Assembly: GCF_011317445.1 (NCBI RefSeq)
Contig: NZ_JAAAPL010000001.1
Span: forward strand, 1,817,001 to 1,881,000
Reading direction: 5' to 3'
DNA length: 64,000 nucleotides
From: Chelativorans multitrophicus
GTDB taxonomy: Bacteria > Pseudomonadota > Alphaproteobacteria > Rhizobiales > Rhizobiaceae
The translations under genes were made by a program, and so were the position numbers. The notes beneath the pieces were generated by a model. That model ran no database searches, was not told the DNA's origin, and saw nothing but the letters and a program-made list of their open reading frames with translations. Positions 24,784 through 50,372 of this stretch are shown here, one piece after another (positions within the stretch are counted from its first letter, which is position 1; every line of letters starts with the position of its first letter).

Positions 24784-26337
24784 CTAGACCGCCTTGAAGT
24801 AGTTGAACTGCCAGTTATTGCCGTCGGGCAGGACGGCTGGCTGCACCGATGCCTGATAGCCCAAGGCGAATACGTCATTGGTCAACCAGACCATCGACGC
24901 TGTTTCATCCATAAGCTTTTGCAATTCGATGATCTGCTTGACACGGCTTTCGCGGTCGAGATTACGACCACTTTCTTCCTGGATGCGGGCAAATTCCGGG
25001 CTATCCCAACGCTGCCAGTTCCAGTCGCCGATCTGGTTCGGCAGAAACCAGCGGGCATTGTAAGTGGGGTCCGGATTGGCGTTGAAGCGAAGGATGAACA
25101 GTTCGAGTTGCTCGCCCGATTCCCCTTTGCCCGAAGACCAGAAGGTGCCGGCTTCGCGCTGATCGATTTCGATATTGATACCGACTTCCTGCAGCAGGGC
25201 CTGCGCCACCAGCCCCATGTTCTGGAAGGCAGGCTCATTGAGAATGGTCAGCTTGAGCGTCAGCGGCAGCGCTACGCCGGCCGAGGCCAGCAATTGGCGG
25301 GCCTCATCGACATTACGCTGATAGACCGGCGCATCGGCCCAGTGGCCGAGCAGGCCGGGCGGGATCATGGCGTTGAGACGCTGGGCATTGCCCTGATAGC
25401 CCGCCAGCACCATCTGCTCGACGTCGATAGCGGCGCGGATCGCCTGGCGGACGGCCAGTTTGTCCAACGGCGCCTTCTGCATGTTCATGCCCAGCCAGAT
25501 GAAGCGCTGGCCGGGGCGCTTATCCACCACAACGCCGTCGATGCCGGCCATCTCGTCCGCGGAATCGACCGACAATTCGGTGAACTGGATTTCGCCGGCC
25601 CGTAGCGCCACCTCTGCCGTCTTCTGGTTGGCTATATAGACCAGGTTGCAGGTTTCGAAATCGGGCGTATAGGCCGTGAATTCTGGATTGCGCACCAGGG
25701 TCACGCCGCGATGGTCCTCATAAGCCGACACCATATAGGGGCCCGAGCCGATCGGCTTGCGGCTGTGCTCCTTGCCTAACGCGGCGACGGCCTTGCGCGA
25801 CTGGATCGCACCGGACGAGCCGGTGAAAATGACCCCCCAGATGCTCGGCGAGGGCTTAGACAGGATGATGCTGCCCGAATAGGTGTCGTGCACCTGCACT
25901 TCCACCAGCGCCGACCAGTCCTCTTTGTAGCTCGACACTCTGCCGTCCGCATCGGGGGTGATATATCGCTCGAAGGAGAATTTGACGTCATCGGCTGTCA
26001 TTTCGCCGTAGCCATCGGTGAACATCTGGCCCTTTTTCAGGGTAAAATCGATCTGGAGTGGGGAGACCTGCTCGATGCTCTCGGCCGCGTCCAACTCATA
26101 TTCGTAGGAGTTGGGAATATAGCTCACCAAGCGCTGGAATACGGCGCGGATGATATTGCTGTCGGTGGTGCCCGCCATGAACGGGGGGTCAAGGTTCTGA
26201 ATTTCGCGGCTGATGCGGATGGAAAGGGTCCGCTGATCCTGCGCCCATGCGAAACCAGCGGGCAGCGCTGCCGTGCCGGAGAGGCCAGCAATGCCAGCGA
26301 GAATGGATCGGCGGGTAAAGTTCGTACTTGTTAACAT
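24784..26337 (-). CDS. ABC substrate-binding protein, peptide/Opp family (system 1)
   Basis: This is a 517-aa family-5 solute-binding protein. The N terminus has twin Arg and a hydrophobic core (FTRRSILAGIAGLSGTAALP), so Tat export is possible. Family landmarks are LKKGQMFTDGYGEMTADDVK, IGSGPYMVSAYEDHRGVTLV and AIRAAIDVEQMVLAGYQGN. Family-5 proteins bind peptides, opines, nickel chelates and other zwitterions, so the ligand is not fixed by sequence. It is the last gene of a permease-permease-ATPase-ATPase-SBP operon. A paralogue with the same gene order lies at 39.2-44.5 kb. In context the ligand may be a betaine or thio-amino-acid such as ergothioneine (inference). Confidence 0.9.
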   Translation of the reverse strand: MLTSTNFTRRSILAGIAGLSGTAALPAGFAWAQDQRTLSIRISREIQNLDPPFMAGTTDSNIIRAVFQRLVSYIPNSYEYELDAAESIEQVSPLQIDFTLKKGQMFTDGYGEMTADDVKFSFERYITPDADGRVSSYKEDWSALVEVQVHDTYSGSIILSKPSPSIWGVIFTGSSGAIQSRKAVAALGKEHSRKPIGSGPYMVSAYEDHRGVTLVRNPEFTAYTPDFETCNLVYIANQKTAEVALRAGEIQFTELSVDSADEMAGIDGVVVDKRPGQRFIWLGMNMQKAPLDKLAVRQAIRAAIDVEQMVLAGYQGNAQRLNAMIPPGLLGHWADAPVYQRNVDEARQLLASAGVALPLTLKLTILNEPAFQNMGLVAQALLQEVGINIEIDQREAGTFWSSGKGESGEQLELFILRFNANPDPTYNARWFLPNQIGDWNWQRWDSPEFARIQEESGRNLDRESRVKQIIELQKLMDETASMVWLTNDVFALGYQASVQPAVLPDGNNWQFNYFKAV

Positions 26338-26372
26338 GTCCTACGCCTCGGTGATCTGTTTGATATCGTGGT

Positions 26373-27359
26373 CTACTCGGCAGGAACTTCGGCTTTCCGG
26401 TGCGCACCAGAAAGCTCCAGGGAATAGGGAAAAAGGCACCGCACCAGCGAGCCGGTTTCCGTTCTGGTCAGCTCCGGTACGGTTTGGGCGCAGGCAGGTT
26501 GCGCCACCGGGCAGCGGGTATGGAAGCGGCAGCCCGATGGCGGCCTGGCATTGCTGGGCATCTCGCCCTGCAGGATAATCGCATTGGCGGCCCCGCCTGC
26601 CGACAGCAGCGGATTGGTCGATAGTAGCGTGGTGGAATAGGGGTGGGCCGGCCGCTCGAACAGCGTCTCCGTTGGCGCATCCTCGACGATCTGGCCGAGA
26701 TACATCACGATGGTGCGCTGCGTCACTCGCTTGATCACATGCAGATTATGGCTGACCATGATGAAGGTCAGATTCATCTCGCGCTGGAATTCCAGAAGCA
26801 GGTTGAGCAGTTCGCCCTGCACTGACACGTCGAGGCCGGCGGTCGGCTCATCGGCCACCAGGACCGAGGGGCGCAACAGCAGTGCGCGGATCACACCAAC
26901 GCGGCGCGCCTGACCGCCGGAAATCTCGTGCGGATAGCGTTCGAGGATCGATGCCGGCAGGCGCAGCCGCTCCAGCAAGGTGTGAATGCGCGCCTCGGTT
27001 TCCCGCCGGTCGAGACCATGAATGGCGACCGCTTCCCGCATCAGCCCGCCGATTGTCATACGCGGCGAGAGCGTCGCGACCGCATCCTGCATCAGCATCT
27101 GGATCTGGCGGCGGAATGCCCAGGAGTCGGCTTTCAGTGCTTGCTGCACCGACTGGCCGACCACTTGAACATCGCCGTAGGTGGCCCGTATCAGCCCGAC
27201 CAGCAGGCGGCAAAGCGTGCTCTTACCGGAGCCGGATTCGCCGACGATGCCAACGGTCTCGCCGTCATCGATCTCCAGCGACACCCCATCGAGCGCCCGT
27301 ATGGAGTTGAGATAGATTACGCTTGTCCTGTCCAGGCGGACGGAGGTGCCGGTCGTCAT
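26373..27359 (-). CDS. OppF/DppF-like ABC ATPase (system 1)
   Basis: The 328-aa cytoplasmic ATPase shows Walker [15 protein letters not shown], signature ISGGQARRVGVIRALLL, Walker B VLVADEPTAGLD and H-loop VSHNLHV. It also has the Opp/Dpp C-terminal domain with the CRFHTRCPVAQPACAQ cluster motif that binds an Fe-S centre in some homologues. The start overlaps the stop of the preceding ATPase gene (ATGA). Confidence 0.93.
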   Translation of the reverse strand: MTTGTSVRLDRTSVIYLNSIRALDGVSLEIDDGETVGIVGESGSGKSTLCRLLVGLIRATYGDVQVVGQSVQQALKADSWAFRRQIQMLMQDAVATLSPRMTIGGLMREAVAIHGLDRRETEARIHTLLERLRLPASILERYPHEISGGQARRVGVIRALLLRPSVLVADEPTAGLDVSVQGELLNLLLEFQREMNLTFIMVSHNLHVIKRVTQRTIVMYLGQIVEDAPTETLFERPAHPYSTTLLSTNPLLSAGGAANAIILQGEMPSNARPPSGCRFHTRCPVAQPACAQTVPELTRTETGSLVRCLFPYSLELSGAHRKAEVPAE

Positions 27360-28326
27360 GTGATATCCTCAAGCCGGGCGCAGGCGGCCAATTGCCCCTT
27401 GAACGGCCGCAGAGCCGGCATGGCGCGCTCGCACTTCTCGACGGCGTAGCTGCAACGTGGCGCAAAGATGCAGCCGGGGGGCGTGTCCACCGGCTCGGGC
27501 ACCTTTCCGGGAATAAAGGCCAGTGGCACGTTCCGCGGTTGGTCGTCGATTTCGCAGCCGATCAGCGCACGGGAATAAGGGTGCAGCGGCTTTGCCAGCA
27601 CATCGCGCACGGCGCCAAGCTCGACGAGATGGCCGCCATACATCACCGCGACCTCGTCGCAGAGCTGCAGCACGGTGCCCAGGTTGTGCGAGATGAAGAT
27701 GATCGATCCCGAAAACTCATTGCGCAGGCGCCGCAGCAAATCGATAATCTGGGCCTCGATAGTGGCATCTAGCGCCGTGGTCGGCTCATCGGCGATCAGA
27801 TATCGGGCTGGCACAACAGCGCCATGGCGATCATGACTCGCTGGCGCATGCCGCCGGACAGCTGTCCGGGATAGTCCTTCATACGGCGCTCGGCATCAGT
27901 AAGGCCAACCTTGGCCAAGGCCGCACTCGCCCGCTTGACAGCGTCTTCCTGTGAGGTGCCGGGGTAGCGGTTCTGCACCACATCGACCAATTGCGTGCCG
28001 ACGCGGAATACCGGGTTCAGCGCCGTCATCGGGTCCTGGAAGATCATGGCGAGCTTGTTGCCGCGGACGCTCTGCATATTGGCGCTGCTCAGCGTGAGCA
28101 AATCGACGCCATCGAGCATGACGCTTCCCTCGGCATTCAGCCCGGGAGCCAGAAGACCCATGATGGTGCTGACAAGGCTGGACTTGCCCGAACCCGATTC
28201 TCCCACAATGCCCAGAATCCGGCCGCGCTCGACCGAGAGATTGATGCCGCGCAGGATTGAAGCAGTGCCCCTATCGGTCTTGGCCGTCAGGCGCAGATCG
28301 GTAATGGACAAAAACGGCTCAGTCAT
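27356..28326 (-). pseudogene. OppD/DppD-like ABC ATPase (system 1), one frameshift
   Basis: The first frame, from ATG 28326, has Walker [15 protein letters not shown]-loop MIFQDPMTALNP and signature [18 protein letters not shown], and breaks after QPDI. The second frame resumes with [19 protein letters not shown]-loop ISHNLG and the C-terminal CIFAPRCSYAVEKCER motif. One missing base at about 27801 (GATATCTGATC in place of GATATCCTGATC) explains the break. The start overlaps the upstream permease stop. Without correction the transporter would lack an ATPase, although the intact system 2 OppD could substitute. It could be a sequencing error or recent inactivation. Confidence 0.85.
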
Positions 28327-29191
28327 TCTTGCCTCCACGCTGCGAACGTGGGTCGATGGCATGGCGCAGGGCTTCCCCGAACATGGTGAAGGCCAGGGTG
28401 GCGATCGCCAGGGCCGTGCTGGAGATCAGCACCGGCAGCACCGACTTGGAGATATTTTGATAGCCGTCCTGCAGCAGCCCGCCCCAGCTCGCCAGCGGCG
28501 GACGCAGGCCCAGGCCCAGAAAGGACAGGCTGGCTTCGATGGCGATGACGATCGGGATATCGAGGGAAGCGATGACGATCAGCGGCGCCAGGATATTGGG
28601 CACGATATGAAAGAACAGGATGCGCAGCTCGGAGGCGCCGAACACCGTTTCGGCTTCAATATAGGGCTCGTTTTTGACCGAGAGCACCTGCGCCCGCGCA
28701 ACGCGCCCATAATGGGGCACAAGGCTGGTGGCTATGACGATGATCAGCATTGGCATCGATGAACCGAGCACGGCGACGGCGGCCATGGCCAGGATCACGC
28801 TGGGAAAGGACGACACCGAATCGAAGGAGATCAGGATGAAGCGCTCGATGGGGCCTGGTACATAGGCCGACAGAATGCCGAGCGTCATACCAATGGCCAG
28901 GGCGATCGCGATCACCGAAAGCGCCACCACGACGGCTACCTGCGTGCCATAGATGTGGCGGCTCAGCAGGTCGCGTCCAAGCTGGTCGGTTCCCAACCAA
29001 TGCTCGGCCGACACACCGGACAGACGATTGACGAGGTCAAGCTTGTTCGGATCGTAGGGCGCCAGCAACGGCGCGAAGAGCGCCACCAAAAGGATTGTCG
29101 TCACTAGCGCCAGGCCGATGGCGCCGCTTGGATACTGCGCCGTCCGGCGCAGCGTATTGAGAAGAATGGAGATGTTTCTCGTCATACTCAC
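28319..29191 (-). CDS. DppC-like ABC permease (system 1)
   Basis: The 290-aa inner-membrane permease has about six spans, an N-terminal OppC-type region ending in HWLGTDQLGRDLLSR, and the EAA-type loop around RARVLSVKNEPYIEAE-like sequence (AQVLSVKNEPYIEAETVFGA). It is coupled to the DppB-like gene by a 4-bp overlap and to the OppD-like gene by 8 bp. Confidence 0.93.
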   Translation of the reverse strand: MSMTRNISILLNTLRRTAQYPSGAIGLALVTTILLVALFAPLLAPYDPNKLDLVNRLSGVSAEHWLGTDQLGRDLLSRHIYGTQVAVVVALSVIAIALAIGMTLGILSAYVPGPIERFILISFDSVSSFPSVILAMAAVAVLGSSMPMLIIVIATSLVPHYGRVARAQVLSVKNEPYIEAETVFGASELRILFFHIVPNILAPLIVIASLDIPIVIAIEASLSFLGLGLRPPLASWGGLLQDGYQNISKSVLPVLISSTALAIATLAFTMFGEALRHAIDPRSQRGGKND

Positions 29192-30144
29192 CGCCGGTTG
29201 TATCGGATACGAGGGTCGAAGAACGAATAGCTGAGTTCAGTCAGCAGATTGATGGCGACGAAAATGACAACGACGATGAAAACCGAGCCCTGCAGCACGG
29301 AAAAGTTGCGCGCCTGCAAGGCAGCGTAAAGCACGCTTCCCAGTCCCTGGCGCGCGAAGATGATTTCGATCAGCACCGCGCCGCCCAGCAGCCGCCCGAT
29401 GCCCATGCCGATAATTGCCAGCGTGGGAATAATGGCGTTCTTGAGGGCGTATTTATAGTGGATCATGTTTTCGCGCAGGCCATAGGCCCGGGCGGTGCGG
29501 ACATAGTTCTGCCCCAGCGCTTCCAGCATCGAGGTGCGCACGAGCCGGGCGATCAGCCCGATCCACCCCAGCGCCAGCGCGACCGTCGGCAGGACCATCC
29601 GGGCCAGTTGATCGCCCAGATCCGCAGAATCGGAGACGCCCAGCACGGGCAGCCAGTTAAGCCAGATCGAAAAGACGATGAGCAGGAAAATGCCTAGAAT
29701 GAAGCTGGGAACCGACACAACGACGACTGAAATCATGGCCATCAGCGTGTCGGCGACCGAACCTTTGTGCACCGCGCCATAAACGCCCGCCGGAATGCCG
29801 ATCAGGCAGGCCAACGCCATCGAGCCGAGGGCCAGCGCGAAGGTGTGCGGCAGTGCAGCCCAGACGATGGCATTAACACTGCGTCCGGAAATCACGTCGG
29901 TACCGAGATTGCCCGCGGCAACCTGGGTGAAAAAGCGCCACAGGCGCACATAGATTGGCTGGTCGAGCCCCATTTCAGCGATAAACTGGCGGGCATATTC
30001 CGGCGTGGCCATAGGTCCAAGCAGCGCGGTGGCGGGATCGCCCGGCACCACGTTGAGCAGCATGACAATGACCAACATTGCGCCGAAAACCGACATTACG
30101 GCGGTCAGAACGCGATTGAAGACGTAACTTTCAAATAGCCGCAA
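29188..30144 (-). CDS. DppB-like ABC permease (system 1)
   Basis: The 318-aa permease has the family opening (VLTAVMSVFGAMLVIVMLLN, then VVPGDPATALLG) and the cytoplasmic EAA region ALGQNYVRTARAYGLRENMI. TTG 30144 is preceded by GAGGGG at good spacing; an in-frame ATG at 30171 lacks a ribosome site and would add nine non-homologous residues. This is the first gene of the system 1 operon, with the shared dyad motif ~115 bp upstream. Confidence 0.9.
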   Translation of the reverse strand: MRLFESYVFNRVLTAVMSVFGAMLVIVMLLNVVPGDPATALLGPMATPEYARQFIAEMGLDQPIYVRLWRFFTQVAAGNLGTDVISGRSVNAIVWAALPHTFALALGSMALACLIGIPAGVYGAVHKGSVADTLMAMISVVVVSVPSFILGIFLLIVFSIWLNWLPVLGVSDSADLGDQLARMVLPTVALALGWIGLIARLVRTSMLEALGQNYVRTARAYGLRENMIHYKYALKNAIIPTLAIIGMGIGRLLGGAVLIEIIFARQGLGSVLYAALQARNFSVLQGSVFIVVVIFVAINLLTELSYSFFDPRIRYNRR

Positions 30145-30259
30145 GCAATTCCCCTCACGTTTGCAGCGCATGATGCGAGAAACAGAGCGCGCATTTTTCC
30201 ACCCGCCATCTCAGCGTGGCGGCTTGAGGGGGATGATATCGTGACACTCGCATCACATA

Positions 30260-30277
30260 ATATCCCAAATTCGGAAC
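30260..30277 (-). promoter_or_regulatory. Shared dyad motif upstream of ABC system 1
   Basis: ATATCCCAAATTCGGAAC contains the dyad CCNAANTTNGG. Near-identical copies lie at 33319-33336 and 44651-44668, each in a gap upstream of a minus-strand operon. It is a candidate operator for the tandem-HTH LysR regulator in the island (inference). The 30145-30420 gap holds nothing else identifiable. Confidence 0.6.
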
Positions 30278-30420
30278 ACTCTATCTTACCCACCCTGAAT
30301 TGTCTGACGATATCCAGCAATATCAATGGTTTATGATGACAACCACAAAGCATGCCGGGGATTACGCCCTTCATAGGACAGCACTCAGGGAGCCGGCGGA
30401 AGCATCGGCATGCGGCTGAA

Positions 30421-31653
30421 CTAGCCTCGGGCCGTGCAAGGCCGCAGGGCAAGCACTATGCCGACCGTAGAACAGAGTGCCCCACCGGCAATAAAAGTGC
30501 CGGGCATGCCGAGCCAGTCGCCTGTCGCACCCACAATAAGCGAGCCGAGCGGCACGATGCCAAGCAGCATCATGGAATACATCGCCATGATCCTGCCGCG
30601 CAGGGCCGGTGGCGCAAAATGCTGCAGCAGCGTATTGGACGACAGATTCTGGGATAGGATCGACAGGCCGAGCGGTAGTGCCAGCAGCGCGGTTACCCAG
30701 TAAAGGCCCGAAAAGCCCATGCCGATCAGCACCAGCCCCAGCGCCACGGTCGACCAGGCAGGAAAGACATTGAGCTGCTCGATGCGATCACGGACGGTCA
30801 GGGCAAGCACCGCGAGCATGGCCCCCACCCCAGTCAGGCTCATCAGCATTCCTGCCGCATCGGCATCCCGCCCCAGCATGTCGCGGACCAGCACGGGCAG
30901 GAAGTAGAAATAGGGCACCGAACAGAAGCTGCAGGTTGCAACCAGCACCAGCAGCCGCCCGATTTCCGGGCGTGCCCGCACAAAGGCAAAGCCCTCGGAC
31001 ATATCCCCAAAGAAGCCCTTACGCGCGACGGGAATGCGTTGCGGCGGGCGTATTCGGCTCAGCACGAAGATCATGGGTAGATAGGCCAGCCCCTTGAGTA
31101 CGAAGCACCAGCCCTCGCCGGCCATGGCCACCACTGCGCCCCCGACCGCCGGACCGATCAGTCGCGCCATGTTGAACAGCATGGAATTGAGCACAATGGC
31201 ATTGCGCAGGTCGTCAATTCCGACCAGTTCCGCTACGAATACCTGCCGCGCGGGATTGTCGAAGGCGGCCAGGATGCCCAGCCCCAGCGTCGTCACCACC
31301 AGCAGGTGAACGGTGACTGTCCCGGTCAGAGTTGCAATGGTCAGGATCGTGACCAGCACGACATAGCCGGCCTGCAGCAGGATCAGCAATTTGCGAAGGT
31401 TCATCCGGTCGATGATCGTCCCGGCGACCGGACTCAGCAGGAAGGTCGGACCCATGTCGCACACGGCCAATACGCCGAGCATCCAGGGCGAACCGCTCAG
31501 CCGCCACATCAGCCAACCCATTGCGATGGAATGTATCCAAGTGCCGATCAGCAGCGGAATCTGAGCGAGGAAATAGCGCTTATAATCGGGATTGCGCAAC
31601 GCGCGGCTGATTCGTGCCCAACGGGCGCCCTGGCTCTCCACGTCGTCCGGCAC
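30421..31653 (-). CDS. MFS exporter (EntS/MFS_3-like)
   Basis: The start is GTG 31653, because GGGAGG lies 6 bp upstream; an ATG 27 bp further up lacks a ribosome site. The 410-aa product has twelve predicted spans, the MFS_3-type opening (LRNPDYKRYFLAQIPLLIGT), and the loop signature GTIIDRMNLRKLLILLQAGY. Close family members export siderophores and other small molecules. It is 56 bp downstream of the lyase gene at 31.7-33.3 kb, suggesting cotranscription and export of a pathway product or of trimethylamine-type waste (inference). Confidence 0.9.
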   Translation of the reverse strand: MPDDVESQGARWARISRALRNPDYKRYFLAQIPLLIGTWIHSIAMGWLMWRLSGSPWMLGVLAVCDMGPTFLLSPVAGTIIDRMNLRKLLILLQAGYVVLVTILTIATLTGTVTVHLLVVTTLGLGILAAFDNPARQVFVAELVGIDDLRNAIVLNSMLFNMARLIGPAVGGAVVAMAGEGWCFVLKGLAYLPMIFVLSRIRPPQRIPVARKGFFGDMSEGFAFVRARPEIGRLLVLVATCSFCSVPYFYFLPVLVRDMLGRDADAAGMLMSLTGVGAMLAVLALTVRDRIEQLNVFPAWSTVALGLVLIGMGFSGLYWVTALLALPLGLSILSQNLSSNTLLQHFAPPALRGRIMAMYSMMLLGIVPLGSLIVGATGDWLGMPGTFIAGGALCSTVGIVLALRPCTARG

Positions 31654-31709
31654 CCAATTCCTCCCAGTTGCGGGTCCCAACCCAGGGTCGGTTTCCCGCG
31701 GCTCGCTCC

Positions 31710-33260
31710 TTACGACGACAGACTAGGATCGAGAGCGAAGAAGCCGTCGATCTCCGGGAGGCTCGCAAGGCTCAGCAATCCCGCCATGCTCGCCTCCGCA
31801 GCCAGACCGCTCTCGATGGCCTCGATTTCCTGCGATAGCGGCCGGTCCGCGCGCTGGAAGCCAGCGCGGGTGCGCACCAGGTCATAGATCAGCTTGGCAA
31901 CACCCTTTGGCGCGTCCCCGGTAATGTCGATGGCCTGCGCGGTGAGCACGCCTTCGAGCGCCGCAAGTTGGCGCAAGGCCGACACCTGCTGTTCGAGGCG
32001 CTCCACCACCAGCGGCAGGAATGTCGCTTCGTCCTCCTGCCCGTCCGCCAGCACCATGATCTGGGCGGAAACTGGCGAGGCCAGCGACAGAACTCGCGCG
32101 AACAATGCGCCCGCCAACTTGATGACCGGTCCCATGCCGGTGGCAATCTCGCCATGTGGCACCAGATTGACCGGCAGGCCGCGCCGCCCGCCATTGCCCA
32201 GCAGCACGCAACGGTTGAAGCCGTTGCGCGCCACATGAGCGATAGCCAGTTGCGCCGTTTGCAGGAAAAGCGTGACATCGAGCGGCAGCGATCCGCCCGA
32301 AGTCAGAACCCGGCCATTGACCACTACCGGATTGTCGTCGGTACGGCCGGTTGCCGCCAAGATGGTGCGCCCGGCCGCAACGAGCCCATCAAAAGCCGCC
32401 CCGAACACCTGCGCCATCATGCGCAGGCTCAACGGGTCCTGCACATGGGTGGCTTCGGACCATCCCCAAACTTCCGCATTGTCGTAGAGCCAGGCTCCCA
32501 CAATTGCCTTGCACGCCCCATCCAGCTGGCTAGCGGCCAGCCAGGGGTCGCGTGAGGCGCCCAGAGCCCCCGCCGAGGTCAGCCCGACAGCCAGCGCCAT
32601 GCGGAACACGCCGGCCGCCTCGCGTATGGCATGAGCGGCTGCGGCATAGGCGATAGCATTGGTGGAAATGGAGGCGAGGCTGTCGCGTGGCGCAAAGATC
32701 ATGGGTACGATGCCCGCCTGGGACAGCGCCAGCTCTGCCGGCATGCGATGGCCGCGGGCATACACCTCCCCTGCCCCGGTCAGCACTGCGCCAATCTGGC
32801 CCATAAGCCCGATATCGGCGCAGCCGATCGAACCGGTGCGCCGCACCACGGGCACCAGATCGGCACGCATCATGGCCAGATAGATATCGACCAATTCGCC
32901 GGAGACACCGACATGCCCGTTCAGGGCCATATTGATGCGGATCGCCATAGCGCTGCGGATAACCGCTGGCGAAAAGGTCTCGCCGGTCCCGAAACTATGC
33001 GCGTGGACAAGGCTGAAATTGAACAGGTCCTGATCGGCAGCGGTCCAGGACACATCCTTCATCGCGCCGACGCCTGTTGTCGCACCATAAACCGGGTGGC
33101 CGGCCGCGATATGGTCTTCGAGGACCCGTCGCGCCGCGCGCACTCGCCGCATCGCCTCGTCATCGGCGGTCAGCTCGACCTTGCCGGCTGCTATGCTCGC
33201 CAATTGGGCAAAGCTGAACGGCTTGCCCTTTAGTTCGAGAACGGTGCGCGACGCCAGCAT
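31710..33260 (-). CDS. MIO-less histidine-ammonia-lyase-family lyase A (ergothionase candidate)
   Basis: The 516-aa product is a HAL/PAL-family member across its length: the active-site Tyr loop YGATTGVG (Tyr58), the inner helices, and NDNPV-type motif TDDNPVVV. The site that normally holds the MIO-forming Ala-Ser-Gly in GSVGASGDL reads GSIGCADIG (143-151): the Ser is absent and the segment is one residue shorter. The YSLRCxPQ motif is also changed, to LSLRMMAQ. It therefore cannot make MIO and should not be a histidine ammonia-lyase. Ergothionase, which eliminates trimethylamine from ergothioneine, is a HAL-fold enzyme that works without MIO. With a thiourocanate-pathway set nearby, lyase A or B is proposed as ergothionase or a hercynine/betaine lyase. 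The dyad motif lies ~60 bp upstream. Confidence 0.8.
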   Translation of the reverse strand: MLASRTVLELKGKPFSFAQLASIAAGKVELTADDEAMRRVRAARRVLEDHIAAGHPVYGATTGVGAMKDVSWTAADQDLFNFSLVHAHSFGTGETFSPAVIRSAMAIRINMALNGHVGVSGELVDIYLAMMRADLVPVVRRTGSIGCADIGLMGQIGAVLTGAGEVYARGHRMPAELALSQAGIVPMIFAPRDSLASISTNAIAYAAAAHAIREAAGVFRMALAVGLTSAGALGASRDPWLAASQLDGACKAIVGAWLYDNAEVWGWSEATHVQDPLSLRMMAQVFGAAFDGLVAAGRTILAATGRTDDNPVVVNGRVLTSGGSLPLDVTLFLQTAQLAIAHVARNGFNRCVLLGNGGRRGLPVNLVPHGEIATGMGPVIKLAGALFARVLSLASPVSAQIMVLADGQEDEATFLPLVVERLEQQVSALRQLAALEGVLTAQAIDITGDAPKGVAKLIYDLVRTRAGFQRADRPLSQEIEAIESGLAAEASMAGLLSLASLPEIDGFFALDPSLSS

Positions 33261-33318
33261 TGCCCAGAAGCCATCCCCAATGATGACCCAGCACTACTGG
33301 ATTGGCCTCACACCGGTG

Positions 33319-35081: not shown

Positions 35082-35129
35082 GATCCTACCTGTGGGGCGA
35101 GTTGGAATGGGTAACGGCACGCCATGGGG

Positions 35130-40778: not shown

Positions 40779-40827
40779 TAGTTTCTCCTGTCCCTCGCTT
40801 TGGCTGTCCGCTGGCGTTGTCCCAGAC

Positions 40828-42742: not shown

Positions 42743-43586
42743 ATCGGGCACTATTACTTACTGCGCGCGGGTCTCCCAGCTTACGCAAGGTCTCGCCCAA
42801 CAAGGTGAATGCCAGGGTGGCGACGGCCAGCACTCCACACGAGATCAGAACCGGAGACATGGACTCCGACAGGTTTTGATAGCCGTCCTGGAGCAGCACG
42901 CCCCAACTGGCGCTTGGCGGGCGGATGCCCAGGCCCAGGAAGGACATGCCGGCCTCGATCGCGATGATGATAGGAATATCCAAGGAAGCGAGCACGATCA
43001 GCGGGCCTGCAATATTGGGCAGGATGTGGTGCATCAGGATCCGCGCCTCCGATGCGCCGACCACGATCTCCGCCTCGACAAAAGGCACGCGGCGTATCGC
43101 TAGGGTTTGGGCGCGGGCAACGCGCCCGAAGTGTGGGATCAGCGCAAAGCCAATCACAGCCGAGATCGTAACCATCGAGGAGCCCAGAACGGCCACGGCG
43201 GCGAGGGCGAGGATGACGCTGGGATAGGAGGCGATGGCATCGAAGGCGATCAATATCGCCCGCTCGACATAGCCGGACATATAGGCGGCCAGGAGCCCGA
43301 GAATGGTTCCTCCGGTCAAGGCGATGAACGCCGCTCCCAGTGCCACCGCCATCGCCACGGAAGTCCCTACCATGTGGCGGCTCAAAAGGTCGCGACCCAG
43401 ATGATCGGTGCCGAACCAATGCTCCCAGGATGGGAGCGCCATGCGGTGGAGCACATCGATCGCATTCGGATCGTGGGGCGTGAAGGCCGGCGATATGATA
43501 GCCGTCAGAAGCAGGATCGCTACTCCGGCGAAGCCGAAGGTGCCCGAAGTCCCGATCTTCCCAGCGAACCTGGTCAGACGCTGCAT
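42735..43586 (-). CDS. DppC-like ABC permease (system 2)
   Basis: The 283-aa permease with about six spans has the family segment HWFGTDHLGRDLLSRHMVGT and the EAA-type region RAQTLAIRRVPFVEAEIVVG. The start shares a base with the DppB-like stop (TGATG). It is a close paralogue of the system 1 gene. Confidence 0.93.
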   Translation of the reverse strand: MQRLTRFAGKIGTSGTFGFAGVAILLLTAIISPAFTPHDPNAIDVLHRMALPSWEHWFGTDHLGRDLLSRHMVGTSVAMAVALGAAFIALTGGTILGLLAAYMSGYVERAILIAFDAIASYPSVILALAAVAVLGSSMVTISAVIGFALIPHFGRVARAQTLAIRRVPFVEAEIVVGASEARILMHHILPNIAGPLIVLASLDIPIIIAIEAGMSFLGLGIRPPSASWGVLLQDGYQNLSESMSPVLISCGVLAVATLAFTLLGETLRKLGDPRAVSNSARYA

Positions 43587-44530
43587 CAGGCGGCATCCTT
43601 GCTGAACCGGGGATCGGCGATCCGGAAGACATATTCGGTTATGAAGTTGATGAAGACGAACAGGACCACGACGACAAAAATGCTCCCTTGAAGAACCGAA
43701 AAGTTTCTCGATATCAACGCGTCGTAGATGACGGTGCCCAGGCCCTGGCGGGCAAATAGCACTTCAACCAGAACCGCACCGCCGATCAGCCGGGCAAAGC
43801 CCATGCCGACGACGGTTATTGTGGGGATGATCGCGTTTCGAAGCGCGTATTTGTAGAATACCAGCGACTTTCTCAGACCGTAGGCGCGGGCGGTCCGGAC
43901 ATAGTTCTGGGACAGCGCCTCCAGCATCGAACTGCGTACCAGCCGGCCGATAATGCCGATCCAGCCTATGGCCAAGGCGGTCGTCGGCAGGATCATGGCA
44001 CGGAACTTGTCCAGCAAACTTGCATCGGCGGATGCGCCTAGAACTGGCAGCCAGTTCAGCCAACTGGAGAAGATGACCAGCAGCGCGATGCCCACGATGA
44101 AACTCGGCATGGAGACAAAAACGATCGACAGCGAGGTAATCACCGCATCGATCGTGGGGGATTTGGTCATCACGCCAAAAACGCCCAGGGGAATGCCGAT
44201 GATACAAGCCAATGCCATAGAGGACACGGCCAGCAACATCGTATTAGGTACCGCTTCAACGATGATGTCCCATACGGGCCTGCCCGAGACGACATCCGTT
44301 CCGAGATTTCCGGTTAGAAGATTCTCAAAAAAGCGGATGAGACGAACATGGACGGGCTGATCGAGCCCCATCTGCTGGATATACTGCCGAACGAACTCTG
44401 GAGATGCCTGAGGACCAAGTAACGTTGAAGCAGGATCGCCAGGGACAACACTCATCAATAGGAAAATCAGCAGCATTGCTGCCAGCACAGCGGCAATCGC
44501 TGTGACTATTTTGCCCAAGAAATCTCTCAT
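43586..44530 (-). CDS. DppB-like ABC permease (system 2)
   Basis: This permease of ~314 aa has VVPGDPASTLLGPQASPEFV at the start and the EAA-region ALSQNYVRTARAYGLRKSLV. ATG 44530 (MRDFLGK) is preferred; ATG 44533 and 44545 are close alternatives. It is the first gene of the second transporter operon, with the shared dyad motif ~120 bp upstream. Confidence 0.92.
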   Translation of the reverse strand: MRDFLGKIVTAIAAVLAAMLLIFLLMSVVPGDPASTLLGPQASPEFVRQYIQQMGLDQPVHVRLIRFFENLLTGNLGTDVVSGRPVWDIIVEAVPNTMLLAVSSMALACIIGIPLGVFGVMTKSPTIDAVITSLSIVFVSMPSFIVGIALLVIFSSWLNWLPVLGASADASLLDKFRAMILPTTALAIGWIGIIGRLVRSSMLEALSQNYVRTARAYGLRKSLVFYKYALRNAIIPTITVVGMGFARLIGGAVLVEVLFARQGLGTVIYDALISRNFSVLQGSIFVVVVLFVFINFITEYVFRIADPRFSKDAA

Positions 44531-44650
44531 CATCGCGTCCCGCATTCTCCGCAAGCGGAAATTGCTTCTTTGCGGCCGTACAACAGTTGTGGGAGAGCTT
44601 GAGCGGCCATGCTCTCGAAATGATGCTATTCCGCCGCCAAATGGGTTCCC

Positions 44651-44668
44651 ATATCCCAAGTTCCGTAC
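44651..44668 (-). promoter_or_regulatory. Shared dyad motif upstream of ABC system 2
   Basis: ATATCCCAAGTTCCGTAC matches the 30260 copy at 15 of 18 positions. It lies in the 284-bp gap (44531-44814) between the urocanase-like gene and the system 2 transporter. The right half of the dyad is weaker (TTCCG for TTCGG). The gap contains no supported gene. Confidence 0.55.
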
Positions 44669-44814: not shown

Positions 44815-46479
44815 CTATTCCGATAGGGCGATATGGTGGATTCCTTTGGCCACTATTTCTTCGTGGCTTTCGTCATATCCCGCATCGGCATACCGCATCA
44901 CGCCCAATGCGGTATCGTTGGTCAACGCATGCTCCAGCCGTTCATCGGCCTCCGGCGTTCCATCAGCGACGATCGTCACGCCGGCCGAGGTCATGTAACC
45001 GGCATAGCCGCCCCCGCCCGAATGGACGACGACCAGATCCGCCATGGAGGAACAGAGCAGCATGGCATTCAGCAGCGGCCAATCGGCGACGGCGTCGGAG
45101 CCATCCTTCATCCGCTCGGTCATAATATTGGGATGGGCCATGGCGCCGGCATCGAGGTGATCGCGACTGAAGGCCACCGGCCCAGCGAGCACACCCTCAG
45201 CCACCATGGCATTGACGGCCCGTCCCAGCGCGGTGCGCTCGCCATGGCCAAGCCAGGCGATGCGCGCCGGCAGCCCTTCAAAGGGCACATACCGGCGCGC
45301 CAGGCCGATCCAGTTGGTGATGATCTTGTTATCCGCAAACATCTCCAGCAATTTGTCGTCGATCTTGCGGATGTCCTCAGGATCGCCCGACAGCGCCACC
45401 CAGCGAAACGGACCAATTCCCCGTGCGAAAAGCGGCCGCAGATAGGCCTCGGTGAAGATTTTGATGTCGAACGCGTTTTCCACGCCGCCATCCCTGGCAT
45501 GGGTGCGGATGAGATTGCCGTTATCGAATACTTCGGCGCCGGCTTTCTGGAAATCGAGCATGGCCCGCACCTGATCGACCATGGATGCGCGGCTTGCGGC
45601 CATCAGTTGGGCTTGTCCGTCCACGCGCAAGCGCTTTACGTCGTCAAGCGACATACCCCTGGGTACGTATCCATAGACAAGATCATGGGCGGCCGTCTGG
45701 TCGGTGACGATGTCCGGCACGATAGCACGGCGCGCGATCTCCGGATAAATTTCGGCCGCGTTGCCGACAAGCCCGATGGAGGTAGCGCGCCGCTCCTTCA
45801 CCGCCCGGTCGATCATGGACAAAGCCGTATCCAGGTCAGGAGCAATCTCTTCGAGATAGCCGATTTGCTGGCGCTTCCTGCAGCGCTCGGCATCTACATC
45901 GACGCAGAGAATAGCGGCACCGGCCATGCGCCCCGCCAGAGGCTGGGCGCCACCCATACCACCAAGGCCCGCGGTGAGAATAAAGCGTCCGGCGAGCGAA
46001 CCGCCAAAACGGCTTTCGGCAATCCGCATGAAGATTTCGTAGGTGCCCTGAATCACCCCCTGCGAGCCGATATATTGCCAGGCGCCGGCCGTAAGTCCTC
46101 CCCAGCAGATCAGCCCCTTTCGCTCCAGTTCATAAAAGACTTCCGACTTGGCCCACTGGCCGACGAGGTTACAATTGGCCATTATCACCAGCGGCGCCCT
46201 GGAGTGGGTTTTCAGGAGGCCGATGGGCTTGCCGGACTGGATGACAAGGGTCTGGTCCTCATCCATGCTCAGCAGGGATTGCACGATGCCCTTATGTGCG
46301 GCCCAGTTGCGGGCGGCCTTGCCCAGAGCGGCATAGACGACCAAGTCATCGGGATTCTCGCCAACGCTCAGCACATTTTCGAGGAGGCGCAACAAAGCTT
46401 CTTGGCGCCATCCCTTGGCGCGCAACTCCGGCCCACCGGGGATGGGAAAATTCGGGTGACGGGCGTTTGGCGTCGACAT
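44815..46479 (-). CDS. Urocanase-family hydratase lacking the active-site Cys (thiourocanate hydratase candidate)
   Basis: The 554-aa protein has full urocanase length and architecture, including the NAD-binding region (GLGGMGGAQPLAGRMAGAAI) and GIGPFRWVALSGDPEDI. The LPARICW motif that carries the essential Cys of classical urocanase reads GLPARIAWLG here (Ala408). The Cys of RPLFC is also Ala (RPLFARG, 352), and the second His of VHHGGG is Ser487. It is thus a diverged subgroup, unlikely to be ordinary HutU. In ergothioneine-degrading bacteria a urocanase homologue hydrates thiourocanate to 3-(5-oxo-2-thioxoimidazolidin-4-yl)propionate, and the neighbouring desulfurase and hydantoinase genes fit the next steps. 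It is the last gene of the operon starting at 50372. Confidence 0.82.
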   Translation of the reverse strand: MSTPNARHPNFPIPGGPELRAKGWRQEALLRLLENVLSVGENPDDLVVYAALGKAARNWAAHKGIVQSLLSMDEDQTLVIQSGKPIGLLKTHSRAPLVIMANCNLVGQWAKSEVFYELERKGLICWGGLTAGAWQYIGSQGVIQGTYEIFMRIAESRFGGSLAGRFILTAGLGGMGGAQPLAGRMAGAAILCVDVDAERCRKRQQIGYLEEIAPDLDTALSMIDRAVKERRATSIGLVGNAAEIYPEIARRAIVPDIVTDQTAAHDLVYGYVPRGMSLDDVKRLRVDGQAQLMAASRASMVDQVRAMLDFQKAGAEVFDNGNLIRTHARDGGVENAFDIKIFTEAYLRPLFARGIGPFRWVALSGDPEDIRKIDDKLLEMFADNKIITNWIGLARRYVPFEGLPARIAWLGHGERTALGRAVNAMVAEGVLAGPVAFSRDHLDAGAMAHPNIMTERMKDGSDAVADWPLLNAMLLCSSMADLVVVHSGGGGYAGYMTSAGVTIVADGTPEADERLEHALTNDTALGVMRYADAGYDESHEEIVAKGIHHIALSE

Positions 46480-46598
46480 GATGGAAAATCTCCATAGACC
46501 TCGTTCTCATACTGCCGAGGGATGAGGCCTCGTCCCTGCGCAGATGACCGTTGGCGCGGCTGGGCGCCTAGGCCTGCAAAGCTGTTGCGGAACTGGGG

Positions 46599-47684
46599 CT
46601 ATTGCCCGTCCAGGGCATATCTGGCGAGTTCGATGCCCATCTGCGCCTCGACATAGGGATAGACGGTGGGGTCAAGAACCGAGGCGCTGAGCGGTATGAC
46701 TGACTTAGGCACGTGCAGTACGAAGATCTGCATGCCTTCGTGCAATTGGCCGACACTCAACGGCTCCGCATCTTCCGACAAGGTGGTTATGACATCCGGG
46801 AAGGTGGCGGTGCGTACGCCATCACGGCCATCCACGGCCATATATTCATTCATGACGTGCAGAACTTCGCCCCCGGCGAGCGTAACGGTGCCGATGTCAA
46901 AGGCGTCCTTCGTATAGACGACGTCCTTCTTGGCGATCCTGCCTTCGCACAAAATGGTCCCCTTGGTCGTTCGAGCGATGGTCTCGATTACGGCCGTACC
47001 GCCTTTGCCTTCCGCGGCGATGATCGCCTCGCCCAGTTCGAGCGCAAGGGAGATGCCCCCAAGCGCCGCGTGCCGCTTGACATAGGAGGCCCGCAACGGG
47101 TTGCGGCAGGAGGCGATGAAGCCGCCCGATTGGTCAGCAGCCGTGCGCAGAATGGGTGACACCTTAGCCGTAGCGCCGCGCGTCACAAGCTCGATGTAGC
47201 GATCTTCGGCCCGGTTGCCACCCACGGCCGTCTGGATCATCTGCTCCGGCGAACCCGCCATGCCGATCGATCCCATGTCTCCGGTCGGATGGGCACGGAT
47301 ATCGCCGACGGCATCGACGACCTTGGTGCCGAGCACCGCGGAAGGCAGCCAGCCATTGAGGGTCGATGACTTGCCATTCTGGCCCACGATGAGCCCGCTG
47401 AGCTTTTCGCCTAATGCCTCCTGAAGCAATTGCACGGCCCTGATATAGTCGACGCCGCGCATTTCCCAGGGCGTGGTGGAGGCCGGAGCGCCGATGGCTG
47501 CTGCGGTGGCGATCCACTCGTCAGGCCCGAGTTCCTCCACGCTGACCAGCTCCGGCCTGCCGACACTGACGGCTGCATAACCGAGCTGGCGCCCATGGTC
47601 GGCCCAACCGCCCCCGCCTGCGGCGTAAACGGAGCCGCCCTTGACGGCCGCTTCGACGTCTTTTTCGGTTAGGATGCGTCCCAT
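46599..47684 (-). CDS. S-methyl-thiohydantoin desulfurase domain (DUF917) protein, thiohydantoin desulfhydrase candidate
   Basis: The start is ATG 47684 (MGRILTEKDVEAAVKGGSVY); the longer frame upstream overlaps the amidase gene. The 361-aa protein has the DUF917/S-Me-THD pattern: YAAGGGGWADHGRQLGYAAV, then VDAVGDIRAHPTGDMGSIGM, and the C-terminal IFVLHVPKSVIPLSASVLDP. This family is associated with removal of sulfur from thiohydantoins. In the proposed ergothioneine route a desulfhydrase converts the 2-thiohydantoin propionate to hydantoin-5-propionate and H2S, exactly the step between the neighbouring hydratase and hydantoinase. The overlap with the amidase gene indicates an operon. Confidence 0.8.
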   Translation of the reverse strand: MGRILTEKDVEAAVKGGSVYAAGGGGWADHGRQLGYAAVSVGRPELVSVEELGPDEWIATAAAIGAPASTTPWEMRGVDYIRAVQLLQEALGEKLSGLIVGQNGKSSTLNGWLPSAVLGTKVVDAVGDIRAHPTGDMGSIGMAGSPEQMIQTAVGGNRAEDRYIELVTRGATAKVSPILRTAADQSGGFIASCRNPLRASYVKRHAALGGISLALELGEAIIAAEGKGGTAVIETIARTTKGTILCEGRIAKKDVVYTKDAFDIGTVTLAGGEVLHVMNEYMAVDGRDGVRTATFPDVITTLSEDAEPLSVGQLHEGMQIFVLHVPKSVIPLSASVLDPTVYPYVEAQMGIELARYALDGQ

Positions 47685-48937
47685 TGGTCTTCCTCTTGTA
47701 GGGCCTTGTCGAGGGCTATCACGGCGTCCAGCAGGACCGCTGCGCCCAACGCGATTTCTTCGGCTGTCGTGGCTTCGTCCGGCGCGTGGCTGCGGCCATC
47801 GCGACACGGGATGAAGAGCATTGCCGCCCTGGTGACGCGGGCCATCCAGGCTGTATCGTGGCCTGCCCCCGATGCCATGCGCCTACGCGCTGCGCCGACG
47901 CGTTCACAGGCCGCGTCGAGCACATTCTGCAGCCAGCGATCGCAGGGCGTCGGCAAGTTGTCGGATACGACGCTCAAAGGCTCCACCGGCACGCCGGTGC
48001 GCTTGGAAATGATATCAACGTCCCGCTGCAATTCGGTGAGGAAGCGCTCCATGTCTTCCCGCCGTTCGGCCCGGGCATCAACCAGCATTCGTACGCGGGA
48101 CGGCACGACATTTCCGGCATTCGGCTCCATGTCGAATTCCCCGACGGTCGCCGCAAAATGGGCATCGCCGGCAGCCAAGGCCCTGGCAAGTTCCTCCACC
48201 TTGAGGGTGATCAGAGCGGAAGTGTTCAGCGCATCCTTCCGTAAGGACATCGGCGTGGTGCCGGCATGGTCGGCGCGGCCTTTGACGATGATCTCGATCC
48301 GCGTGATGCCGGCTATGGCCGTTACGATGCCAATATCAAGTTGCTGGGCCTCAAGCACCGGGCCCTGCTCGATATGGAGTTCAAGGAAGGCCTTGATGTC
48401 GGTCCGCACCGCCTCTTGGTCCGCGCAGCCCCCTACCTGGCCGATGCCTTCGCGAAGGGAAAGGCCCTCGCTTTGGCGGTCCAGCCATTCTTGCGGCCGC
48501 GTGCCGCTCATGCCGCGGCTGCCAATGCAGGAAACGCCGAAAATGGAGACTTCCTCGGCGAGAAAGTCCACCACCTGCAGCGTATGGTCGATTCCTATGC
48601 CCTGATCAGCCAGGGCACGCGCCACTTCCATTGCGGCGACCACGCCGGCGATGCCGTCGTAGCGTCCGCCTTCGGGCACAGTGTCGGAGTGGCTTCCCAG
48701 CATGATTGTGCCAAGCTCCGGGCGGCGGCCGGGAATGGTGCCGACAAGGTTACCTGCAGCATCGATCGCCGTCACCGCACCGGCGGCTTGCATAGCTCGT
48801 TCGAGCCAGGCGCGGCCTTCCAAAAACATTGGGGTAAAGGCACGCCGCGTCCAGGGACGGCCGGGCTCCGTGATGGCCGCAAGCGCGTCAATGTCGGCGC
48901 TGATCCGACCGGGGCGAATGGGGGAATTCGGGATCAT
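47669..48937 (-). CDS. N-carbamoyl-amino-acid amidohydrolase (M20 family, AllC/HyuC-like)
   Basis: Start ATG 48937 (MIPNSPIRPGRISADIDALA) gives 422 aa; upstream sequence in this frame is not family-like. The di-metal ligands are all in place: His and Asp in GSHSDTVPEGGRYDG, Glu in FLAEEVSIFG, His in ELHIEQGPVLE, and the C-terminal His in RSHAPDE. Family members hydrolyse N-carbamoyl amino acids or allantoate. After hydantoinase action on hydantoin-5-propionate, N-carbamoyl-L-glutamate would be its substrate, yielding glutamate, CO2 and ammonia. The desulfurase gene overlaps its 3' end. Confidence 0.86.
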   Translation of the reverse strand: MIPNSPIRPGRISADIDALAAITEPGRPWTRRAFTPMFLEGRAWLERAMQAAGAVTAIDAAGNLVGTIPGRRPELGTIMLGSHSDTVPEGGRYDGIAGVVAAMEVARALADQGIGIDHTLQVVDFLAEEVSIFGVSCIGSRGMSGTRPQEWLDRQSEGLSLREGIGQVGGCADQEAVRTDIKAFLELHIEQGPVLEAQQLDIGIVTAIAGITRIEIIVKGRADHAGTTPMSLRKDALNTSALITLKVEELARALAAGDAHFAATVGEFDMEPNAGNVVPSRVRMLVDARAERREDMERFLTELQRDVDIISKRTGVPVEPLSVVSDNLPTPCDRWLQNVLDAACERVGAARRRMASGAGHDTAWMARVTRAAMLFIPCRDGRSHAPDEATTAEEIALGAAVLLDAVIALDKALQEEDQWDAS

Positions 48938-49013
48938 GCCGGCATGCCCTCCGGCCCCGTTACGAAGAGCGAGAGGCCAGGAGCGCGAGCAAAGGCAGGC
49001 GCGAAACGCGGCA

Positions 49014-50372
49014 TCAGTGGCGCGCCTCGGGGCGCACGAACCGGCCAGTACCGGGGGCCGCCGTTTCGGTGCCGTCGAAGACCTGCCGCCCACGCAGATA
49101 GGTCAGACCAACGGTCCAGGGCAGTTCGATGCCGTTATAGGGAGACCAGCCGACGACGTTGTGGCCGCTTTCGGCAGCGTCATAGATCTTGGGTCTCGGG
49201 AACAGCACGGTAATATCGGCATCGCGCCCGGCGGTCAGCGCTCCCTTGGCATGATCGATCCGGAAGTGCCTCGCCGGGCTCTCGGCCATGAGCTTCGCGG
49301 CCCAGGTCAGGGGAATGTCGCGCGCCAGCGCGCCCTTGACGAAAAGCGGCACCATAACTTCGAGGCCGGGAACACCCGATGAATTGGCCAGCATGTCCGA
49401 ATTGTTCTTGCGGTTTTCCGACCAGCTCACATGATCGGTGGAGACGAGGGTGACGTTGCCCCGGCGCACATGTTCCCAGAGCTTTTCGACCTCGGCGCGG
49501 GGCCGGAGCGGCGGATTGATCTTGGCCTTGCCGCCAAGACGCTTGACGTCATTGTCCTCGTCCAGCGTCAGATAATGGATGCAGGCCTCAATGGTGGCGG
49601 CGTAGCCCTGATCGCGATAGCTGCGGGCGATCTCGTATCCACGGGACAGCGAACAATGGACCACATGAGCGGGGCATCCCGTCTGCGCGCCGATCTCGTA
49701 GATCTGAAGGGTGGCAAGAAGCTCGGTTAACGGCGGCCGGCTCATTGCATGGGCGCGATAATCGGAAATGCCCGCAGCCTTCACCCTGGCCATGGCGTGG
49801 TGCACCATCTCGTCGTCTTCGTTGTGGACGCCGGCGGTCAGACCGGTCTTGGCGACCGCAACAAAACACTCCTCAAGCAAGGCGGGGGAAATGCGCGGAA
49901 AGCGCACTGGATCGGTGCCGAAGGTGGAAAACTTGAATGCGGCCACACCAGCTTCGGCCTGTTCGGCGATGCGTGCCGGGCCCTCCATCGGATCGATCGT
50001 GCCGTATAGGGCGAAGTCCACGCGCGCCTGCGAGCTCGCATGATCGACCTTCTTGCGAACGGCCGCGGCGGAACAGACCAGATTGCCCTCATCATATGGC
50101 ATATCGACAATGGTGGTGACGCCGCCCGCGGCTGCGGAGCGGGTGGACCAGATGAAATCCTCCTGATGCTTCTGGCTCAGGGAATGCACCTGAGCGTCGA
50201 TCGCACCGGGCAGGATCAGGGCATTACCAAGAACGTGTCGCTCCCGCGCCGATGGCGCATCGCCTTTACCGACATGCTCCACCCTACCGTCGCGAACCGC
50301 TACGTAACCGTTCTCAACAACCACATCAGGCAATACGACCCTGCCGGACAGCACGAGATCAAAGTCGGACAT
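49014..50372 (-). CDS. Hydantoinase/dihydroorotase-type cyclic amidohydrolase
   Basis: The 452-aa amidohydrolase has the metal motif GAIDAQVHS (Gln in place of the first His, as in many dihydroorotase-like proteins), a candidate carbamylated Lys in AAFKFSTFG, His in VHNEDD and VVHCSLSRG, and the Asp/His of VSTDHVSW. It opens cyclic amide rings. In this operon hydantoin-5-propionate is the expected substrate. It is the first gene of the operon hydantoinase, amidohydrolase, desulfurase, hydratase. Confidence 0.84.
   Translation of the reverse strand: MSDFDLVLSGRVVLPDVVVENGYVAVRDGRVEHVGKGDAPSARERHVLGNALILPGAIDAQVHSLSQKHQEDFIWSTRSAAAGGVTTIVDMPYDEGNLVCSAAAVRKKVDHASSQARVDFALYGTIDPMEGPARIAEQAEAGVAAFKFSTFGTDPVRFPRISPALLEECFVAVAKTGLTAGVHNEDDEMVHHAMARVKAAGISDYRAHAMSRPPLTELLATLQIYEIGAQTGCPAHVVHCSLSRGYEIARSYRDQGYAATIEACIHYLTLDEDNDVKRLGGKAKINPPLRPRAEVEKLWEHVRRGNVTLVSTDHVSWSENRKNNSDMLANSSGVPGLEVMVPLFVKGALARDIPLTWAAKLMAESPARHFRIDHAKGALTAGRDADITVLFPRPKIYDAAESGHNVVGWSPYNGIELPWTVGLTYLRGRQVFDGTETAAPGTGRFVRPEARH

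Follow-up and report, generated by a model that had tools for sequence, protein, structure and literature searches.

The DNA analysed here, called the window below, is a stretch of 64,000 nucleotides from Chelativorans multitrophicus (G000:C1:1817001-1881000; genome of 4.82 Mb in 15 contigs), and our subject is a group of genes at positions 24784-50372 that forms a candidate island for ergothioneine breakdown. Ergothioneine is produced by fungi and some bacteria, is taken up by animals, and is familiar as a mushroom antioxidant. A five-step bacterial pathway for its catabolism was reportedly described by Beliaeva, Leisinger and Seebeck in 2021 (cited in PMC9732360). An initial annotation of the window had placed the genes of such an island on one strand, and open reading frames (ORFs) and Pfam matches bear this out: all family-matched genes of the interval lie on the minus strand and match the families named. 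For the enzymes of the pathway, the Pfam families are Lyase_aromatic (twice), Urocanase, S-Me-THD (DUF917), M20 amidohydrolase and cyclic amidohydrolase. The ORFs it listed were also found, although several of the listed starts lie upstream of the likely ones. The genes are given below in the order of transcription; enzyme names ErtD and ErtE are taken from NCBIfam, and MIO stands for 4-methylideneimidazol-5-one, HAL for histidine ammonia-lyase, OYE for old yellow enzyme, ASL for argininosuccinate lyase, MFS for major facilitator superfamily and SBP for solute-binding protein.

49014-50372, minus strand: ErtD, hydantoin-5-propionate amidohydrolase, step 4 (NF058538, 772 bits, cut-off 600)
47669-49093, minus strand: ErtE, N-carbamyl-L-glutamate amidohydrolase, step 5 (NF058540, 591 bits, cut-off 520)
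46599-47807, likely start ~47684, minus strand: thiohydantoin desulfurase (DUF917), step 3 (NF058529, 584 bits, cut-off 440)
44815-46479, minus strand: thiourocanate hydratase, step 2 (NF058530, 1047 bits, cut-off 930)
43586-44659, minus strand: OppB2 permease (Pfam BPD_transp_1)
42735-43586, minus strand: OppC2 permease (Pfam BPD_transp_1)
41765-42751, minus strand: OppD2 ATPase (Pfam ABC_tran and oligo_HPY)
40828-41925, likely start ~41772, minus strand: OppF2 ATPase (Pfam ABC_tran and oligo_HPY)
39231-40988, likely start 40778, minus strand: SBP2, family 5 solute-binding protein (Pfam SBP_bac_5)
37558-39165, minus strand: lyase A, MIO-less lyase of the HAL-fold family (best PDB match 6s7j; MIO deletion)
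36315-37601, minus strand: OYE-family flavoenzyme (Oxidored_FMN, 231 bits; nearest 7o0t, 3hf3)
35130-36290, minus strand: LysR-type regulator (two HTH_1 stretches and LysR_substrate)
33582-35120, minus strand: ASL-like lyase (Lyase_1, 139 bits, also ASL_C2; nearest solved chain 6g3d, 201 bits)
31710-33260, minus strand: lyase B, MIO-less HAL-fold lyase, proposed ErtA (ergothionase, step 1)
30421-31680, minus strand: MFS_3 exporter-type protein (MFS_3, 188 bits)
29188-30171, minus strand: OppB1 permease (Pfam; 61% to OppB2)
28319-29191, minus strand: OppC1 permease (Pfam; 61% to OppC2)
27356-28362, minus strand: OppD1 ATPase, broken (ORFs 27796-28362 and 27356-27814, in different frames)
26373-27359, minus strand: OppF1 ATPase (Pfam)
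24784-26337, minus strand: SBP1, family 5 solute-binding protein (Pfam; 50% identical to SBP2)

Measured between the longest ORFs, gaps of 119-321 bases precede the hydratase, OppB2, lyase B and OppB1 genes, and the remaining junctions of the island span at most 65 bases or overlap; upstream of ErtD, the neighbouring gene lies 380 bases away. The likely start of ErtE lies downstream of the first codon of its ORF. A scan for sigma-70 promoters was uninformative (5 observed, 4.6 expected), and terminator-like sites numbered 24, with 11.1 expected. The MFS and LysR genes do lie within the island, as had been annotated from the letters.

Four consecutive genes score above the curated cut-offs of NCBIfam, namely those for thiourocanate hydratase, thiohydantoin desulfurase, ErtD and ErtE. 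The last two are the hydantoinase and N-carbamoyl-amino-acid amidohydrolase of the initial annotation; for ErtE, the generic model PRK12893 scores above NF058540 (629 bits, cut-off 486). The DUF917 protein had been read as an S-methyl-thiohydantoin desulfurase, but it passes the thiohydantoin desulfurase model and falls below the S-methyl-type cut-off (275.5 bits, cut-off 450). Likewise, the diverged urocanase is a thiourocanate hydratase by NF058530 and lies below the cut-off for S-methyl thiourocanate hydratase (746 bits, cut-off 880), while also exceeding, with 688 bits, the broad HutU cut-off of 375. Among solved chains, 7ned_A comes closest to it (812 bits), with other urocanases at 628 bits or less, and the window protein carries AHPNIMTE and HSGGGGYAGYMT where canonical HutU has ASPNRETE and HHGGGVGMGFS. 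The same segment change, with one A/S exchange, is found in all 15 thiourocanate-type relatives compared; RETE is kept in the S-methyl type and in both canonical HutU proteins compared. An S-methyl-ergothioneine set within the window was considered and rejected: its enzymes (NF058531, NF058532) belong to the same families, but the window proteins stay below such cut-offs and the S-methyl set of this genome lies elsewhere.

For the first step, the island holds two lyases that are approximately 25% identical to each other. Both lack the MIO triad (GSVG-VGDLSSL and GSIG-CADIGLM, where the HutH of this genome reads GSVGASGDLAPL), and in our alignment, from which five duplicate loci were omitted, the loss in both comes about through a one-residue deletion identical to that of the Treponema denticola ergothionase (TdErg; PDB 6s7j, 6s7q), with ASG retained in both HutH rows. 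The Tyr of QDPY is lost in every MIO-less row, and QDPL is common to lyases A and B and TdErg. Over approximately 500 residues, TdErg matches lyase A with 188 bits (next PDB match, 118 bits) and lyase B with 175 bits, and lyase A shares the motifs NRNLL.SHC and NRGVG with it. In the column of TdErg K383, a Lys that may be catalytic, Lys stands in lyase A (adjoining a gap and thus less sure), in lyase B and in 14 of 14 aligned lyase-B relatives; the sole HutH readable there has V, and the Sinorhizobium meliloti relative and two further lyases (L002, L014) have other residues than Lys. Glu occupies the E411 column in both window lyases. The annotated MIO-less HAL-fold lyases are thus recovered, with MIO loss aligned in both and the fold modelled for lyase B, whose model (predicted local distance difference test score, pLDDT, of 75) has 6s7j as its best Foldseek match (E 6.2e-23) and HAL close behind (4.1e-22). 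The lyase A model has a mean pLDDT of 54 and was not used; the HAL fold of this protein rests on Pfam.

The initial annotation had treated the two lyases alike, which holds for lyase B as a gene linked to the pathway but not for lyase A, which is rare. We compared 21 loci, 7 found with lyase B and 14 with the hydratase (5 genomes and 9 plasmids, the plasmid hydratases being 70-82% identical), each with flanks of approximately 10-20 kb, unequal in length, so that more distant genes would be missed. A contig scan with lyase B recovered the former seven (five Devosia, one Pelagibacterium, one Salinarimonas), and core genes lie beside it in 7/7, these loci having been selected by lyase B itself. 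In a phylum sample of 398 genomes including the source, thiourocanate hydratase occurs in six and lyase B in five, all five with the hydratase; three of these share one genus and are not independent. Among the hydratase-found loci, a lyase-B relative stands at the core in 7/14 and in 2/14 (Burkholderia arboris, P. denitrificans HAMBI_2443) a lyase resembling lyase A is no more than 2 kb away from the hydratase. No comparison locus carries both types (0/21). At 1e-60, none of 296 other genomes from the same order has a relative of lyase A, and at 1e-45 one other genome of the phylum sample has one, at 29% identity. Lyase A as the linked pathway lyase was therefore rejected for the source's clade.

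Phylogenetic trees place the two lyases differently. In a first tree of 30 rows, the lyase-B clade is set off from the rest (100/100, branch 3.6), and lyase A joins TdErg together with lyases of Burkholderia, Sinorhizobium and Paracoccus (85/85). A second tree excludes the two long branches L014 and L002, so that L002, the lyase of the S-methyl module, appears in the first tree only; here, the clade of lyase A and TdErg receives 62/81, and the approximately unbiased test does not reject a grouping of the two window lyases (p-AU 0.217). Both trees were built without the ergothionases of Burkholderia HME13 (BAM63550) and Agrobacterium radiobacter. Lyase B occupies a separate branch in both, and its separation from the characterised enzyme is well supported, while a position of lyase A nearer the Treponema/Burkholderia type has weak support. 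The branch of lyase A is long (2.6-2.9). Compared with the characterised ergothionase, as the annotation had envisaged, lyase B thus falls outside the clade, and lyase A joins it only at the values given.

We consider it very probable that these genes constitute a complete ergothioneine-utilisation (ert) island of the known pathway in a new, extended layout, much as had been annotated: steps 2-5 lie above NCBIfam cut-offs and a linked MIO-less lyase is available for step 1. Since curated cut-offs are passed and lyase B co-occurs with thiourocanate hydratase, a chance assembly is unlikely. In the proposed route, an Opp-type transporter would import ergothioneine, and lyase B would eliminate trimethylamine from it to give thiourocanate, as its fold, lost MIO and linkage suggest. 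Thiourocanate hydratase would then add water to thiourocanate, the desulfurase would release H2S to leave hydantoin-5-propionate, ErtD would open the hydantoin-5-propionate ring, and ErtE would hydrolyse N-carbamyl-L-glutamate to glutamate, CO2 and NH3; the LysR regulator probably controls the gene set. Steps 2-5 are assigned here by curated equivalog models, whose names, together with the published pathway, supply the reactions proposed. Compared with that pathway, the island differs in its distinct lyase-B clade and in the added second lyase, two Opp sets, OYE, ASL-like and MFS genes; its LysR and lyase B genes are split from the core, whereas they lie close to it in many relatives. With respect to TdErg, the MIO deletion, QDPL, the K383 and E411 columns and the HAL fold of the lyase-B model are shared, but both window lyases are distant from it.

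Several observations weigh against this assignment. Neither lyase matches any ergothionase model in NCBIfam, we know of no characterised member of the lyase-B clade, and a long branch divides this clade from TdErg. Lys in the K383 column is also present in several lyases from other contexts (among them P. saliphilus, L003, L043, L048) and so does not single out ergothionases. In one of the 14 hydratase-found loci (P. aminophilus), the only lyase is another MIO-less one approximately 13 kb from the core, and in four, aromatic lyases are absent from the fetched flanks. Moreover, at the comparison loci where the transporter next to the core carries an annotation (L041, L042), it is of the amino-acid ATP-binding cassette (ABC) type and not Opp.

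Two ert cores without a core lyase, those of Paracoccus aminophilus and Thalassospira marina (L043, L045), are flanked by coenzyme A enzymes or a UbiD-type gene and by tripartite ATP-independent periplasmic (TRAP) transporters. Such cores are perhaps fed by imported thiourocanate.

The further genes of the island are less regular companions of the core. Both annotated paralogous Opp-type transporters were found, but the gene for ATPase D of transporter 1 falls into two overlapping ORFs: 27796-28362 encodes Walker A and the ABC signature, and 27356-27814 encodes Walker B. This reflects either a frameshifted gene or a sequencing error; a frameshift, if real, would disable transporter 1. With matches accepted at E up to 1e-5, an Opp-type permease pair is present in 4/21 comparison loci (27-37%, one cut by the stretch end), directly after the hydratase in Devosia ureilytica. 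Closer Opp relatives (41-59% by gene) occur in other contexts, and in Azospirillum B510 one lies divergent from a MIO-less lyase gene. LysR relatives (>100 bits, 30-45% identity) are near the core in 13/21 loci. The OYE and ASL-like genes of the annotated extended layout are present in the window, but their membership in the pathway finds no echo in the comparison loci, where each is matched in 0/21 and the MFS gene in one (31%, P. denitrificans). The OYE protein shows the motifs APMCQ and IHGGHGYL. The ASL-like protein has the loop TSSIMSQKRNP, scores under the argH cut-off (268 bits against 279.5) and, at E<=1e-95, lacks a relative in all 387 other genomes compared; an anti-phage role was considered and set aside, there being no PADLOC match.

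Elsewhere, the genome adds to this repertoire: it encodes three urocanases, one of them in the window, and five aromatic lyases, four of which lack MIO. A complete module of the S-methyl-ergothioneine type, near C1:1.654-1.672 Mb, contains S-methyl thiourocanate hydratase (980 bits, cut-off 880), S-methyl thiohydantoin desulfurase (539/450), ErtD (774/600) and ErtE (607/520), together with a MIO-less lyase, a betaine-type ABC transporter, a BisC-family reductase, a rhodanese-domain protein, a sulfur dioxygenase-like gene and a TauE exporter (L082, G000:C1:1653000-1671000; L091). Canonical hut genes reside at 2.25-2.26 Mb (HutU, 960 bits), and approximately 3 kb from them a MIO-less lyase adjoins an OsmF-like betaine-binding protein (173 bits, cut-off 400; L083:4473-7076), which makes this a candidate hercynine module and the lyase a candidate hercynine lyase.

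The relatives of lyase A bear on what it may do. Those 33-34% identical to it have two kinds of neighbour: canonical hutU for the ones in Paracoccus saliphilus and Paraburkholderia PGU19, where the HutU model gives 944 and 947 bits and the thiourocanate model stays below its cut-off, and thiourocanate hydratase in the B. arboris and P. denitrificans records mentioned above. Because two records show each arrangement, lyases of this type seem to alternate between ergothioneine and, probably, hercynine as substrate. In S. meliloti, a 36% relative shares its neighbourhood with an Opp set and with an annotated dimethylsulfoniopropionate (DMSP) lyase gene. In Polaromonas JS666 and P. saliphilus (L049, L050), a MIO-less lyase lies near a YeiH-family or putative sulfate exporter, with an ornithine cyclodeaminase-family gene and a PhnD-type gene nearby; by conjecture, these neighbours would fit a sulfonate substrate. 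Most likely, lyase A broadens what the island can use, its substrate being ergothioneine or a closely related compound such as ergothioneine sulfonate or hercynine.

This leads to an alternative that we rate only a little short of even, in which the locus serves two substrates, with lyase A and Opp2, perhaps joined by the OYE and ASL-like proteins, devoted to another trimethylammonium compound (ergothioneine sulfonate, hercynine or another aromatic betaine). The double neighbourhood of the lyase-A relatives speaks for it, as do the genes around the JS666 and P. saliphilus lyases, and the diverged Opp sets (50-61% identity) would fit two substrates. A catabolic pathway for ergothioneine sulfonate was reportedly described by Yan, Huang and Zhang in 2022, and it presumably also begins with a trimethylamine lyase. 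The same publication is cited in PMC13405746, there for the Agrobacterium radiobacter ergothionase. Yet, the window holds no second hydratase and no recognised sulfonate-linked neighbour, which leaves the link to sulfonate a conjecture; the S-methyl-ergothioneine and candidate hercynine modules lie elsewhere in the genome, and the position of lyase A in the trees is weak.

Somewhat more doubtful, though a serious contender, is that the ASL-like, MFS and Opp1 genes form a separate unit for aminopolycarboxylate or metallophore handling that came to lie in the island by chance insertion. The nearest ASL-like chain, 6g3d, is presumably an ethylenediamine disuccinate (EDDS) lyase, its deposited name being argininosuccinate lyase. 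The scarcity of ASL-like and MFS genes at the comparison loci and the variability of the region would agree with insertion, but the ASL-like ORF is only 9 bp from LysR, whose relatives recur near the cores. No core gene accompanies the ASL-like gene in three plasmid records (Variovorax, Bradyrhizobium, Thioclava). The Thioclava plasmid (L022) repeats the family mix of the unexplained part of the window: its ASL-like gene (36%) is accompanied by an MFS gene, by an Opp-type set and by a long gene of the OYE family (23% to that of the window).

A reading in which lyase A merely duplicates lyase B, as an ergothionase of the Treponema/Burkholderia type, seems rather unlikely to us: the best PDB match of lyase A, its shared motifs and its place in the first tree favour this, but the two types coincide at none of the comparison loci, and the long branch of lyase A is what a changed function might give. 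Still less probable is a far-reaching combination, in which lyase B founds a second, separately derived ergothionase family, the genome runs three or four parallel trimethyl-histidine pathways (for ergothioneine in the window and for S-methyl-ergothioneine and hercynine elsewhere), and lyase A, OYE and the ASL-like protein open a further undescribed route for oxidised or conjugated ergothioneine. A diverged histidine-utilisation set, finally, is rejected as next to impossible, because although the folds are those of hut enzymes (Lyase_aromatic and Urocanase matches, hydratase above the HutU cut-off), MIO is lost, the thiourocanate model is passed by 117 bits and scores 360 bits above HutU, the desulfurase has no hut role, and the canonical hut cluster is elsewhere.

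The ert island sits in a variable region of approximately 58 kb. Similarity to three genus relatives stops at the end of a TetR gene (23910-23964). In one relative, which has 15.7 kb of other content there, it picks up again at C1:1898743, approximately 58 kb on, and in the second near C1:1900379, with no resumption within the 60 kb examined in the third. The hydratase is present in 1/16 genus genomes and the flanking resistance-nodulation-division (RND) gene in 13/16, the source being counted in both. No transfer RNA that might mark an integration site was found in the window or four neighbouring stretches; integrases were not searched for.

Directly upstream of the island, positions 50753-56682 hold an operon-like row comprising a BisC-family S/N-oxide reductase, a flavin adenine dinucleotide (FAD) oxidoreductase, a fusion of thioredoxin and PatB C-S lyase, and a mercaptopyruvate sulfurtransferase-like gene. 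At 1e-60, nothing in the 15 other genus genomes matches the PatB fusion, and the 21 ert loci likewise gave no match for it. This row could feed S-conjugates or sulfoxides of ergothioneine into the pathway. Beyond it, a HyuA/HyuB-type hydantoinase/oxoprolinase pair (56741-60723) is followed by a third family-5 solute-binding protein (61184-62758).

To our knowledge, ergothioneine degraders and the lyases they use are poorly mapped. In the open-access literature, no title or abstract opening on the island or the lyase-B clade was found, which is weak evidence of absence. According to PMC13405746, only ammonia-lyase annotations came back when the Burkholderia ergothionase was used as the query of a homology search. 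Lyase B hints at a different clade as the home of many alphaproteobacterial ergothionases, and surveys using the Burkholderia or Treponema enzyme alone may miss those of the lyase-B type. Housed in one island, lyases A and B could be compared to learn what makes a MIO-less lyase prefer one trimethyl-histidine over another, and the extra genes around them might widen the diet of this organism to ergothioneine-related compounds.

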